From an uncultured Bacteroidota bacterium (GTDB taxonomy: Bacteria > Bacteroidota > Bacteroidia > Chitinophagales > Chitinophagaceae), in contig CAIRTW010000008.1 in assembly GCA_903881585.1 (NCBI GenBank), forward strand, positions 1 to 32,376: a stretch of 32,376 nt of DNA. Reading direction: 5' to 3'. The translations under genes were made by a program, and so were the position numbers. Shown here piece by piece: positions 15,083 through 32,352 of the stretch. Position 1 is the stretch's first letter. Each line of letters starts with the position of its first letter. The notes beneath the pieces were generated by a model, which was given only the letters and a program-made list of their open reading frames with translations, had not been told where the DNA came from and did no database searches.

Positions 15083-15174
15083 CATTCAAGAACGGATTTT
15101 TAATAACCGAGATAAAAGCAAAAAAGTTTAAAAGAAGGAAAATCAATTTGAACACACTTTTAAAAAACAAACCA

Positions 15175-16587
15175 ATGAAGAGAACAAAAATGGCGTTTCT
15201 GGCGGTAGCGGCCTTTATGCTTACACAAAAAGCTAATGCACAAGCAACAAATCCCAGTGACGGGACACAAGGCACAAGCACAGAAGCTTCTGCGGAAAAA
15301 GTTACCTGGGATGGGTTCGATATGTCCTGGGAAAATGGCAGCGACCGCAGGGATTCATCGGTCTTCCACATCCCTTATTTCACGCCCAGCATTATGGTTG
15401 ATTGCAATGCCACCCATTCGTTTAATAATCCGATAGACCATACGGTGGTGGGCTCAACAGCGATATCCCGTAATGATGAGATGACGATCTCGGCAGTAAA
15501 TCTGGGAGGCGACTTTACTTTTGGTAACGCACGCGGCCGGATCATGACACAGTTCGGAGACCGGGCAATAGTCGTTCCCAGAAATGACCTCAGCCCTTAT
15601 CGCGGTCAGTATTCCCTTGCAGACGCTTACCGTTATCTTGACGAAGCTTATGCCGGGTATCATTTTAAGAATATTTTTTATGGTGGGATGAATGTGGACT
15701 TCGGTCTCTTCATGTCATACATCGGTCTTAATTCCTATTATCAGGAAGAAAACTGGGAATACCAGGCATCCTTTACTTCTGACAATACTCCCTGGTTTTT
15801 CAATGGCATTCGTATCCAGATGTTTCTGAGTAAAACACTAAAGGTGGAACCCTGGATCATCAACGGATGGCAGAGTTACGGCATGTTCAACCAGCTGCCG
15901 GGTCTTGGCTGTAACGTTACCTGGAGGCCGAATGAGAAATTGAAATTGCTGACCAACGATTATTATGGTACAGATGCCGCAGGACTTATCGGCAGGCATC
16001 GTTTTCATTCTGACAATAGCTTCTTATACCGCTACTTTAATAACCGCCAATCAAAGGGGCTGAGCAGGTCGGCACTATCTGCCACCGTGGACTTCGGGTA
16101 TGAAAAAGGTGATGGCGTAAACGGATTCAATAACAGTGACCCGGTAAATAACCCAGCACAGTATTTTGTGAACTGGATGGTGTATAACAAAATGTGGTTT
16201 TGTAAAAATCATTTAGGCTGGTACATTGGTGGTGGCTGGATGACAAATCCCGGGCGTTACCTGGTTCTTGCACCAACAGGTGATGCAAGCCCATTCCCAA
16301 ATCAGTATAACCCAACACAGCCCGCAGGTACGCATCCATTTACCGAAAACCCGGGCGACCAGTTTACCGGGTGGGACTGCTCTACCGGACTTAGCTGGAC
16401 GCCAAACCAAAGTATTGAATTTAAGCTGGAGTGGGTACACCGTGAGGCAAGCGTAAACTACTTTGCTGGTCCGGGTGGCGTGACATCGCCAACGGGATAT
16501 ACTTATAGTCCATTGCCCGGTACCTGGGCTCCAGACCTTGTAAAATCAGAAAACCGGGTCATTGCAGCTTTTCTTTTCCGCTTGTAA
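15175..16587 (+). CDS. Outer-membrane beta-barrel protein (BBP2/OmpL-like), first tandem copy
   Basis: The track starts at a TTG (15148), but the ATG at 15175 gives a proper signal peptide, MKRTKMAFLAVAAFMLTQKANA|Q, and 470 aa. The mature protein has alternating aromatic/polar beta strands throughout and ends in a strand closing with phenylalanine and leucine (IAAFLFRL), typical of outer-membrane barrels. Landmarks are SSVFHIPYFTPSIMVD, HSFNNPIDHTVVGSTA and YYQEENWEYQASF, which resemble the putative porin-2 (OmpL-like) family. It lies 92 bp after ynfA with no terminator in between. A close paralogue follows at once. It probably provides outer-membrane permeability when Kdp is active; its ion selectivity cannot be read from sequence. 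Confidence 0.85.
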   Translation: MKRTKMAFLAVAAFMLTQKANAQATNPSDGTQGTSTEASAEKVTWDGFDMSWENGSDRRDSSVFHIPYFTPSIMVDCNATHSFNNPIDHTVVGSTAISRNDEMTISAVNLGGDFTFGNARGRIMTQFGDRAIVVPRNDLSPYRGQYSLADAYRYLDEAYAGYHFKNIFYGGMNVDFGLFMSYIGLNSYYQEENWEYQASFTSDNTPWFFNGIRIQMFLSKTLKVEPWIINGWQSYGMFNQLPGLGCNVTWRPNEKLKLLTNDYYGTDAAGLIGRHRFHSDNSFLYRYFNNRQSKGLSRSALSATVDFGYEKGDGVNGFNNSDPVNNPAQYFVNWMVYNKMWFCKNHLGWYIGGGWMTNPGRYLVLAPTGDASPFPNQYNPTQPAGTHPFTENPGDQFTGWDCSTGLSWTPNQSIEFKLEWVHREASVNYFAGPGGVTSPTGYTYSPLPGTWAPDLVKSENRVIAAFLFRL

Positions 16588-16738: not shown

Positions 16739-18142
16739 ATGAAGAGACCAAAAATGGTACTATTGGCGGTTGCCGCTTTTATGTTTTCCCAACAAACCAA
16801 TGCCCAGTCAATAGATCCCAGCGATGGAACCCAGGCCCCGGCAGCCCGGGAGCCAGTGAGCAGGATCCCATGGGATGGATTTGATCAGACATGGATCAAT
16901 GGCAATGACAGAAGGGATTCGTCGGTATTCCACATACCTTATTTCACCCCAAGTATAATGGTCGATAACAACATCACGCATTCTTTTAATAATCCTATTG
17001 ATCATACAGTAGTCGGATCAACGGCACTTTCCCGCAATGATGAAATGGTGATCTCTGCGATCAATTTAGGCGGAGATTTCACATACGGTAACGCTCATGC
17101 GCGGATCATGACCCAGTTCGGCGCCCGCTCGCAGGTGGTGCCGCGTAACGATCTCAGTGTTTATCGGGGCCAGTACAATCTCGATGATGCCTACCGTTAC
17201 CTCAATGAAGCCTACGCCGGCTACCATTTCGATGTGATGTACGGTATTAATGTGGACTTCGGTTTGTTCATGTCCTACATCGGTCTCAACTCCTACTACC
17301 AGGAAGAAAACTGGGAATACCAGGCATCCTTTACTTCCGATAATACTCCATGGTTTTTTAATGGCATCAGAATACAGATATTTCCAAGCAAATACCTGAA
17401 AATAGAGCCGTGGATAATAAACGGCTGGCAGAGTTATGGTTCGTTCAATGCACTGCCGGGTGTGGGCTGTAACGTTACTTATATGCCGAAGGAATATTTT
17501 AAAATACTTACCAATGATTATTGGGGCACTGATGCGGCAGGCCTCGTGGGCAGGCACCGGTTCCACTCGGATAACAGTATGTCGCTAAGGTATTTTAACA
17601 ACAGGCAATCCAAGGGCCTCAGCCGGATGGCATTGAGCGCTACCGGAGATTTTGGTTTTGAACAGGGCGATGGTGTGAATGGTTTTACCAGTGACCCGGT
17701 AAAAGGGCCGGCACAATATTTTGCCAGCTTCATGGTGTATAACAAAATGTGGTTTTGTAAAAATCACTTAGGATGGTATATAGGTGGTGGCTGGATGACT
17801 AATCCCGGTCGTTATCTTGTCCTCGCTCCTACAGGAGATGCGAGCCCATTGCCGAACCCAAGCAACCCAACCCAAACAGCAGGAACGCATCCATTTTCCG
17901 AGAACCCAGGCGATCAGTTTACAGGATGGGACTGTTCTACCGGGTTTAGCTGGACTCCAAACCAGAGCATAGAATTTAAGTTGGAGTGGGTGCACCGTGA
18001 GGCTAGTGTAAACTACTTTGCGGGTCCGGGTGGCGTTACGTCGCCAAGCGGATATACCTATACTCCGTTAACTGGCGGCTGGGCACCTGATCTGGTGACA
18101 TCAGAAAACAGGATTGTTGCTGCTTTCCTTTTCCGTCTGTAG
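16739..18142 (+). CDS. Outer-membrane beta-barrel protein (BBP2/OmpL-like), second tandem copy
   Basis: The 467-aa protein is the sister of the preceding gene: same signal peptide design (MKRPKMVLLAVAAFMFSQQTNA), same length and roughly four-fifths identity by eye, with long identical blocks such as YYQEENWEYQASFTSDNTPW and HLGWYIGGGWMTNPGRYLVL. Differences gather in the post-signal linker, a short gap near residue 167, and loop-like segments. The C-terminus keeps the barrel signature (VAAFLFRL). The leader before both ATGs also matches (CACTTTTAAAAAA then CAA). Terminators lie on both sides, so it may be expressed separately from copy 1. It is probably a porin with altered loop properties. 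Confidence 0.85.
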   Translation: MKRPKMVLLAVAAFMFSQQTNAQSIDPSDGTQAPAAREPVSRIPWDGFDQTWINGNDRRDSSVFHIPYFTPSIMVDNNITHSFNNPIDHTVVGSTALSRNDEMVISAINLGGDFTYGNAHARIMTQFGARSQVVPRNDLSVYRGQYNLDDAYRYLNEAYAGYHFDVMYGINVDFGLFMSYIGLNSYYQEENWEYQASFTSDNTPWFFNGIRIQIFPSKYLKIEPWIINGWQSYGSFNALPGVGCNVTYMPKEYFKILTNDYWGTDAAGLVGRHRFHSDNSMSLRYFNNRQSKGLSRMALSATGDFGFEQGDGVNGFTSDPVKGPAQYFASFMVYNKMWFCKNHLGWYIGGGWMTNPGRYLVLAPTGDASPLPNPSNPTQTAGTHPFSENPGDQFTGWDCSTGFSWTPNQSIEFKLEWVHREASVNYFAGPGGVTSPSGYTYTPLTGGWAPDLVTSENRIVAAFLFRL

Positions 18143-30458: not shown

Positions 30459-31198
30459 ATAAAACGATTGTTGATCTGGCAAAGATAAAAAAGCATGGCA
30501 TCTTCCGTCCCCTCCGAGTAGCCTTTGTAGGGACTCGGAGGCGATCAGGGAACTGAAGCCAAATGACTGAACCTGCCACCATGCATCGCTCTATCCCGTC
30601 ACTAATACCAAGTGTCAAAATTTCTACCGGCAAACGCCTCGCGCACAACGGCACGACACATAACAATCCCAGCTAACATCTCTCGCCAAACACAACTTTC
30701 CACATCAAAAATGCACCTGTCATTTTCTCAAGGTATTCATAATCTGTAATCCCCTGCAATATCAACCCCTTACCTCGAAAAAAAATTACATCATATTCAC
30801 CCTGCGCTCTATGGCAGCACGAAAAACGAACTATCATAAAAACTCGTTTTGCAAAAACCATTTCCTCAGCTCACCTTTGTTCCAAAAAAGCAAAAAATGC
30901 TTCTTTATACCGTTTACACAAATTAAACATTAAAAAACGGTATCAAAGAATATTCGCGCTTACCCTGCCCGTACCGAAAAGGCACATAAAAGCTTTGCTA
31001 CTTTGCGATCAAATATATAATGCCGGTCTCTGCGAATCTTTGCGTGAACTTGTTTTGCCGGGATTTGATGTTGAGTTGGCATTAGCCTACAGTTCCAACT
31101 GGGGACCAAAATTACAACCTGTTTGTTTACTTATTTTAGACATTATCAAAAAAAGTGACAACCTATTAGCACGAGTCAGTATGACAGCCAACTGAAAG
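30459..31198. other. Long region without a recognisable gene
   Basis: The small ORFs here (30433-30666, 30673-30861 and 30995-31195) have no recognisable domain and irregular composition, so I do not call them. The stretch contains a 9-bp inverted repeat (30511-30541) and loosely repeated CTTTGC strings around 30990-31045. The texture is of decayed or shuffled DNA leading into the integration-like repeats further right. A remnant coding segment may hide at 30673-30861 on the minus strand but cannot be named. Confidence 0.4.
30511..30541. repeat. Inverted repeat, 9-bp stem
   Basis: CCTCCGAGT (30511-30519) and ACTCGGAGG (30533-30541) are perfect complements separated by 13 bases. There is no U-tract in either direction, so it is not a normal terminator. 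It may be a REP-like or insertion-scar palindrome. Confidence 0.4.
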
Positions 31199-31248
31199 TG
31201 GGGCATTGTGGGGCACGAATGGGGCATAGATGGGGCATGAGTGGGGCA
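31199..31248 (+). repeat. Five helically phased TGGGGCA repeats
   Basis: TGGGGCA begins at 31199, 31209, 31220, 31231 and 31242, a spacing of 10, 11, 11 and 11 bp, so all five copies face the same side of the helix. An inverted copy (TGCCCCA) follows at 31298-31304. The array lies in a gene-free stretch. Phased heptamers of this kind suit cooperative binding by a recombinase, plasmid/phage initiator or regulator. It parallels the GGTGGCA doublets at the left end. No protein gene for such a factor remains in view. Confidence 0.7.
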
Positions 31249-31432
31249 CCGCCTAAAAGTGCAAACAATTGAAAATCAAACGAAATATTTTTTTAAATGC
31301 CCCAAAAGCAATAGATTTTCTTCGGCCAGTACGGGGCTTTTTCGGAAGTAGATTTGCCCCCGTTTTGCCGCGCCGCCGTTGTTGGTCTTATTTTCTGACC
31401 AACAACCTCGCAAGTACAGTATCCAGAATCTG

Positions 31433-31621
31433 CTACTGGATATCCAATTTCTCAATTCCCGCTTGCTTGAGTATGGCAAAGAAAGTACCCTTCTTCAAAT
31501 CTCTGCTACCATGTACTGGAACAGTCGCTGTTTTGTGAGACTCCGCGTTGTAATAGATATGGTGTGAGCCACTCGTTCGTTTATAATAGAAGCCGTTCTT
31601 CTCCAGTATTGACTTTAAGGC
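31433..31621 (-). pseudogene. HicA-type toxin remnant lacking a start codon
   Basis: This frame is not in the ORF track because it has no start codon. Read on the minus strand it gives about 62 aa: ALKSILEKNGFYYKRTSGSH, then HIYYNAESHKTATVPVHG, then SRDLKKGTFFAILKQAGIEK, ending in a TAG stop at 31433-31435. This is nearly the whole HicA/YcfA mRNA-interferase fold, with the conserved catalytic GSHHIY histidine and VPVHGSRDLKKGT. An ATG at 31621-31623 sits exactly where HicA should start but is out of frame by one base (ATG CCT TAA). A terminator hairpin lies just upstream, so its promoter also seems lost. No HicB antitoxin gene is recognisable on either side. I read it as an inactivated solitary HicA. 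Confidence 0.65.
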
Positions 31622-31839: not shown

Positions 31840-32352
31840 ATGCAATTTCAATGTACAAAATGCGGTAATATTCACGAGGGATGGCCAGCTATTACATTTG
31901 ACGCACCACATAATTACTATATACTTTCCGAGGAAGATAAAGAAAGGTATGTAAAAGAGTTGAGTGATGATTTTTGTATTATTGAATACGAAGATCAAAC
32001 AGACCGTTTTATTAGGGCGGTACTTTTTCAAGAAGTAATTGATGGTTGCCAAGATTTGCATTACGGTATTTGGGTATCCTTAAGCGAGAAAAATTTTGAT
32101 GAGTACAACGAGAATTTTCTCTCAGAAGATCAAGAGGGAGGTTACTTCGGATATTTGTGTAGCCAAATACCAGGGTACAATTTTTCAAGTTCCATCAAAA
32201 CAAATGTGGTATTAGCTAAAAACCGACAACGTCCCGAAGTAATACCGCACAAGGATCAAATGGATAATGAGTTTGTTCAGGATTACTGGAATGGTATCAC
32301 CCAAAAAGAGGCAGAAAAACGTATTGCTGAAGCTATGAACAACAATCAATAA
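31840..32352 (+). CDS. DUF2199 domain protein
   Basis: The 170-aa protein matches the DUF2199 pattern as I recall it. It has an N-terminal zinc-ribbon-like half site FQCTKCGNIHEGWPAITFDA, then APHNYYILSEEDKERY, DFCIIEYEDQTDRFIRAVLF, and the signature HYGIWVSLSEKNFDEY. The family is cytoplasmic and uncharacterised; it is common as a single gene and sometimes sits in accessory regions. The ATG at 31840 is the natural start, with no Shine-Dalgarno. The reading frame ends 24 bp before the window edge and is complete. It lies directly beyond the integration-like repeats, so it may be part of a mobile or accessory island. The minus-strand ORF 31837-32061 is a shadow. Confidence 0.85.
   Translation: MQFQCTKCGNIHEGWPAITFDAPHNYYILSEEDKERYVKELSDDFCIIEYEDQTDRFIRAVLFQEVIDGCQDLHYGIWVSLSEKNFDEYNENFLSEDQEGGYFGYLCSQIPGYNFSSSIKTNVVLAKNRQRPEVIPHKDQMDNEFVQDYWNGITQKEAEKRIAEAMNNNQ

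Follow-up and report, generated by a model that had tools for sequence, protein, structure and literature searches.

Operators of the PhoB/OmpR type consist of 7-bp direct repeats with 4-bp spacers and are located at promoters; a heptamer and 4-bp spacer repeated along one face of the helix suits regulators of the OmpR/PhoB fold that bind cooperatively. Clusters of 11-bp repeats are found in parC of plasmid R1. In phages, integration of an element would split attP into attL and attR. Published attP sites carry arm-type sites as pairs and triplets, one of them inverse, with arm words that differ between phages having the same core, and the arm sites of mycobacteriophage integrases vary independently of the cores (PMC3203893). 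Among Bacteroidota, the BrickBuilt MITE of Porphyromonas gingivalis occurs in about 20 intergenic copies with promoter activity (PMC4596501).

The window analyzed here is a 32,376-nt stretch, contig C8 of a 4.85-Mb genome assembled in 376 contigs. The TGGGGCA array that it contains belongs, as a diverged copy, to a dispersed family of non-coding elements of ~125 bp, termed EL. The half-site order in EL is fixed (direct-direct(-direct)-core-inverted-direct): outer half-site(s) and direct TGGGRCA words 10–11 bp apart precede an AT-rich core of ~50 bp, an inverted TGCCCCA at a fixed position and a direct TGGGGCA ~28 bp beyond it, this last site being usual but not universal. A promoter-like block, termed UP, lies ~320 bp upstream of the array in the window. 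The features are as follows:

30769–30891, + strand: UP block, promoter-like, with ATCAT/ATGAT words, reading toward the array (nhmmer E 8e-26; R2 model E 6e-24)
30892–31198, + strand: variable stretch from UP to the array (length 86–367 bp, depending on the copy)
31199–31248, + strand: five direct TGGGGCA half-sites at steps of 10-11-11-11 bp (sequence, pattern search, chance test)
31212–31337, + strand: match of the EL model to the window copy (R1 E 8e-14; nhmmer E 6e-16)
31249–31297, + strand: AT-rich core from the last direct to the inverted half-site, holding the TTGAAAATCAA dyad and diverged from the family consensus (alignment)
31298–31304, − strand: inverted half-site, TGCCCCA on the + strand (position as in other EL copies)

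Like the attP arm arrays of mycobacteriophages Pixie and CrimD (PMC3203893) and those at loci L406, L356 and L392 described below, EL is built from short words set ~11 bp apart as direct pairs or triplets, placed on both sides of a core with some in opposite orientation, and in both cases relatives differ in their words independently of their cores. In the window and in relatives, helically phased arm-type repeats flank the EL core as they do in attP. However, attP is single and lies beside its integrase gene, whereas EL occurs as dozens of compact copies per genome without an adjacent integrase; none was found on the EL contigs of the window's own genome, the exception, outside the genus, being one weak relative. 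BrickBuilt and EL are both taxon-restricted, intergenic, non-coding elements of Bacteroidota with a direct-repeat array, but in BrickBuilt the tandem repeats are 23 bp long and unspaced and the inverted ends are IS5-like, whereas EL has 7-bp words at helical spacing, with unequal spacers of 3–5 bp, in its fixed direct-core-inverted-direct layout. PhoB/OmpR operators share the 7-bp direct repeats with 4-bp spacers; EL differs from them in being dispersed and in having its AT-rich core surrounded by an inverted site and a distant direct one.

The exact TGGGGCA words of the window occupy 31199–31205, 31209–31215, 31220–31226, 31231–31237 and 31242–31248 (+), and TGCCCCA begins 49 bp past the last of them. 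The first-pass annotation had judged the spacing too regular for chance and had noted the inverted copy 50 bp on. The regularity was confirmed using 300 dinucleotide-preserving shuffles of the window, in which the longest run of TGGGGCA at 10–12 bp steps was 1 (298 shuffles) or 2 (two shuffles), compared with 5 observed. Both chance and a simple tandem repeat were ruled out by these shuffles together with the unequal spacers between words. Among the EL copies read, the window copy has the longest run of direct words, and the last direct half-site that is usual in EL is degenerate or missing from it. The same annotation had named a conserved coding frame in relatives as one of two findings that would speak against its reading; none was seen through the array in relatives, and the array is overlapped by mechanical ORFs only.

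A search of the whole genome for TGGGGCAN4TGGGGCA with up to two mismatches gave 66 places, compared with 15 for a reversed control pattern. The genome contains 21 clear EL copies by blastn and 31 matches to R1, a sequence-only covariance model of EL. Across the 35 genomes of the genus searched with R1, EL was present in 12, with up to 48 matches per genome (G012, 48; G002, 41; G015, 32; G023, 23; G020, 16; G005, 13; G003, 11; G004, 10) and none in many others, giving a patchy distribution. Another 149 genomes, almost all of which belong to other genera of the family, contributed no more than three matches, each of them weak and single. Being a member of a dispersed family, the array is not unique, uniqueness having been the other finding named as speaking against the earlier reading. 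The proposal that it is the recognition array of a lost integrase, of a plasmid or phage initiator, or of a host regulator holds in part: a binding array, plausibly that of an integrase, is retained, and a unique relic of one element lost at this place is ruled out by the dozens of dispersed copies. The dispersal, the UP block upstream and a layout shared with other words (see below) go beyond what that annotation had observed. A literature search on TGGGGCA returned nothing relevant. In G002, EL forms rows of two to three copies, many of them close to the end of a contig (C115, C242, C331 and C302, for example), as if such repeats break the assembly. An integron-like cassette array was considered for these rows (copies 250–700 bp apart) and for a pair on C349 (766 bp apart), and was rejected because the C349 pair is a duplication (left flanks 89% identical) and because the G002 copies sit in repeat-filled intergenic DNA.

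In 128 pairwise alignments the ends of EL were sharp and located at the outermost half-sites: most right ends fell either within ~11 bp of the last half-site or, where the right segment comes in two alternative forms, ~35 bp short of it, and most left ends fell inside the left half-site cluster. The majority base was found in 95% of copies at half-site columns and in 77% at other columns, and in the window copy the match to the consensus was 86% over the half-site positions in register, compared with 51% over the rest. Half-sites are thus conserved and the core is not, which points to half-sites read by a protein. Taken together, the sharp ends, the dozens of recurrences, the fixed order and the half-site conservation show the behavior expected of a multi-site DNA-binding element, and neither that of an RNA nor that of a protein gene; membership of the array in a dispersed family of multi-site, protein-binding DNA elements is well supported.

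The UP block was present in 31 of the 35 genus genomes (R2 model) and, in 11 of 20 units examined, lay 86–367 bp upstream of EL in constant orientation. Its 3' end carries what we take to be a Bacteroidota-type −7 motif, CACCTTTG, and UP may act as promoter and operator. A coding gene was considered and set aside, the minus-strand open frames being shifted in divergent copies by inspection, and UP was left as a promoter-like block. In other species UP precedes prophage-type genes, or elements with the EL layout but other words. Using a strict definition (three exact hexamers at 10–11 bp), a word array was found downstream of UP at 8 of 48 loci and upstream at 1 of 48, with 0.1% in shuffles. 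UP is probably a promoter common to prophage-type genes of the genus; since it is shared with them, the EL units would be relics or satellites of phage-borne DNA. Two such types of gene were noted behind UP-like blocks. In G029, G009, G034 and G001 such a block lies just upstream of stand-alone, multi-copy genes for an HTH protein of 295–342 aa (PHROG 4151, with a Terminase_5-like N-terminus; loci L447, L458, L463, L473, L469, L456 and L471), and at L191 (G026) and L474 (G009) the gene behind it codes for a Mu-like prophage I protein, with a capsid gene next in L191.

The layout is not restricted to one word. TCGGGCA is found in an EL-type layout in two other genera (L717 and L716, both weak EL matches outside the genus), TGGGATAA occurs in direct-direct(-direct)-core-inverted-direct order in the genus member G026, and ACGTACAG in G007 shows a partial layout, with direct words and a shorter inverted CTGTACA. 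One core type, TTAATATCAGCCAC..., is common to copies with different words, and at an orthologous locus (C112 of G000 and C39 of G003) UP and the words are retained with a core of another type, so that words and cores vary independently. A core shared with phages was considered for TATCAGCCAC, which gave five IMG/VR matches, and was dismissed, the five contexts being apparently unrelated and without word arrays. A broader reading, which we regard as somewhat unlikely, is that dispersed chromosomal elements of a single layout make up a class that spans the family, in which word (TGGGGCA, TCGGGCA, TGGGATAA, ACGTACAG and others) and core type switch independently from species to species and even within one orthologous locus, and which a trans-acting recombinase family with diversifying arm specificity would maintain, that is, a many-copy, compact att-site system outside prophages.

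A link to tyrosine recombinases, for which the first-pass annotation had suggested looking beside TGGGGCA arrays of 11-bp period, was found in other organisms. GTDB genomes and IMG/VR were scanned for three TGGGGCA words with 3–5 bp spacers, and recombinases were detected with an HMM built here. Among the matches listed, the periods were mainly 11 bp and 12 bp; a recombinase lay within 1 kb at 12 of 67 loci with 11-bp arrays compared with 6 of 150 with other spacings (Fisher p 0.002), a test that is not fully independent because 5 of the 12 recombinases were HMM seeds picked for lying beside arrays. The 12-bp class had a recombinase nearby in 1 of 107 cases among the matches listed. TGGGTAA arrays were likewise recombinase-associated (7/16 vs 4/47), and TGCGCAA and CGGAAAT arrays showed no such association in IMG/VR. 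The integrases beside L358, L406, L356, L264 and L392 were confirmed by Pfam and PHROGs. In L406 and L356 the words flank a presumed attP core on both sides, beside the integrase gene, and in L392 the array adjoins tRNA genes (read by eye); all three loci resemble attP or attL/R arms. A weak EL relative from a different genus of this family (L706) lies directly before an integrase with PF17293 (Arm-DNA-bind_5), PF13102 (Phage_int_SAM_5) and PF00589 (Phage_integrase) domains. Among the IMG/VR loci, L358 and L388 encode an IntI-looking recombinase of 320 aa (Phage_int_SAM_4 and Phage_integrase), with the array of three TGGGGCA words ~110 bp beyond its 3' end. Phased triplets of TGACGGC and GGTGTCG were seen near integrase genes at two integrase loci of the window's genus, L430 and L440.

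Within that genus no recombinase was found beside any of the dozens of EL copies. Of the five recombinase genes found in the window's own genome, two look Xer-like from their length and score, and Arm-DNA-bind integrases are encoded on C9, C234 and C288. No EL copy shares a contig with any of the five, no TGGGRCA array lies near them, and no PF00589 gene was found on the EL contigs. No EL copy seen was split into attL and attR, the arms surrounding an uninterrupted core, and no attB was identified for this core. Neither a precise empty site nor a target-site duplication emerged. Of the species compared at the locus downstream of pgk, only G003 and G020 carry the unit, and the others differ in neighboring genes and gene order; at the C79 locus G003 and G020 lack the unit, and just one flank is conserved. 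The window's own flank gene, as a synteny probe, was found in only two other genus genomes and was therefore of no use for an empty-site comparison. Some units occupy orthologous places in two species, so that units can be old and need not be mobile at present.

A tyrosine recombinase is the best-supported single identity for the binding protein, on the basis of analogy, the statistics from other taxa and the one weak relative in the family. We tentatively favor, as a real possibility that falls short of being probable, a dispersed att-like cluster of arm-type sites, read by a protein that is most likely a Bacteroidota-type tyrosine recombinase, with an Arm-DNA-bind and a catalytic domain, acting in trans or lost. 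The TGGGRCA half-sites would be its arm-type sites, along which the protein may oligomerize on one helix face and wrap the AT-rich core, and the dispersed copies would be att-like units that are not autonomous and that the recombinase would spread and exchange, either in trans or before it was lost.

Alternatively, a chromosomal protein of the OmpR/PhoB-like or ribbon-helix-helix type could bind dispersed clusters and regulate or organize the genome, as in a host regulatory or nucleoid-type array. The heptamer with its 4-bp spacer on one helix face would suit a cooperative regulator, and half-site conservation, retention at orthologous places in species pairs and the upstream UP block are also consistent with such a role. 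However, EL copies lie in varied intergenic surroundings, often beyond the 3' ends of facing genes and without a consistent promoter position, their patchy distribution and absence from most genus members are unlike a core regulon, and the fixed inverted-then-direct right half would be superfluous for a simple regulator, making this reading unlikely.

Less likely still is a MITE-like remnant of a DDE-type transposon or IS, with clustered subterminal transposase sites, ATGCCCCA...TGGGGCAT ends and a BrickBuilt-like habit. EL does consist of short, multi-copy, intergenic, non-coding, AT-rich, genus-restricted copies without a transposase, with sharp ends bearing inverted TGCCCCA/TGGGGCA and tandem clusters in G002. 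In most copies ATGCCCCA/TGGGGCAT lie at the two ends or close to them. Against a MITE origin, no target-site duplication was recognized at the copies and no parent IS was found, at least three words at helical spacing would be unusual for IS ends, and the left end varies, being inverted in some copies and a direct site in others.

A replication-initiator or partition site of plasmid or phage origin (iterons together with AT-rich DNA, or 11-bp repeats serving as a centromere), scattered as relics, would match the direct repeats with an AT-rich core and the 11-bp repeat clusters of parC, but is improbable given dozens of chromosomal copies in varied contexts and an inverted-direct right half that it leaves unexplained. 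The weakest candidate, a non-coding RNA transcribed from UP and folded through complementary half-sites, is consistent with a promoter-looking UP that reads toward EL in constant orientation but is most improbable and was ruled out by pair counts, RNA pairing being argued against because word position 5 (G or A) varies independently in each partner site and because pair counting detected no more covariation than in shuffles at either of the two possible stems, with one stem pair mismatched in 6 of 21 copies, a variable UP–EL spacing and no Rfam family over EL at its cut-off.

If the recombinase reading is correct, short phased arrays that are ignored by annotation pipelines would mark many dispersed recombination or binding sites in this Bacteroidota family, a comparison of words across species would offer a natural series for the evolution of recombinase arm specificity, and the fixed layout would make a search for the binding protein directly testable.

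Other features of the window were also noted. Just to the right of the element is a HicA toxin frame (31436–31618, − strand; PF07927, E 6e-20) with no in-frame start codon seen in the 61 residues read, and the last gene before the contig end at 32376 encodes a DUF2199 protein (31840–32352, + strand; PF09965). Two adjacent, near-duplicate genes for outer-membrane porin-like proteins (15148–16587 and 16739–18142) follow a kdp-type potassium operon.
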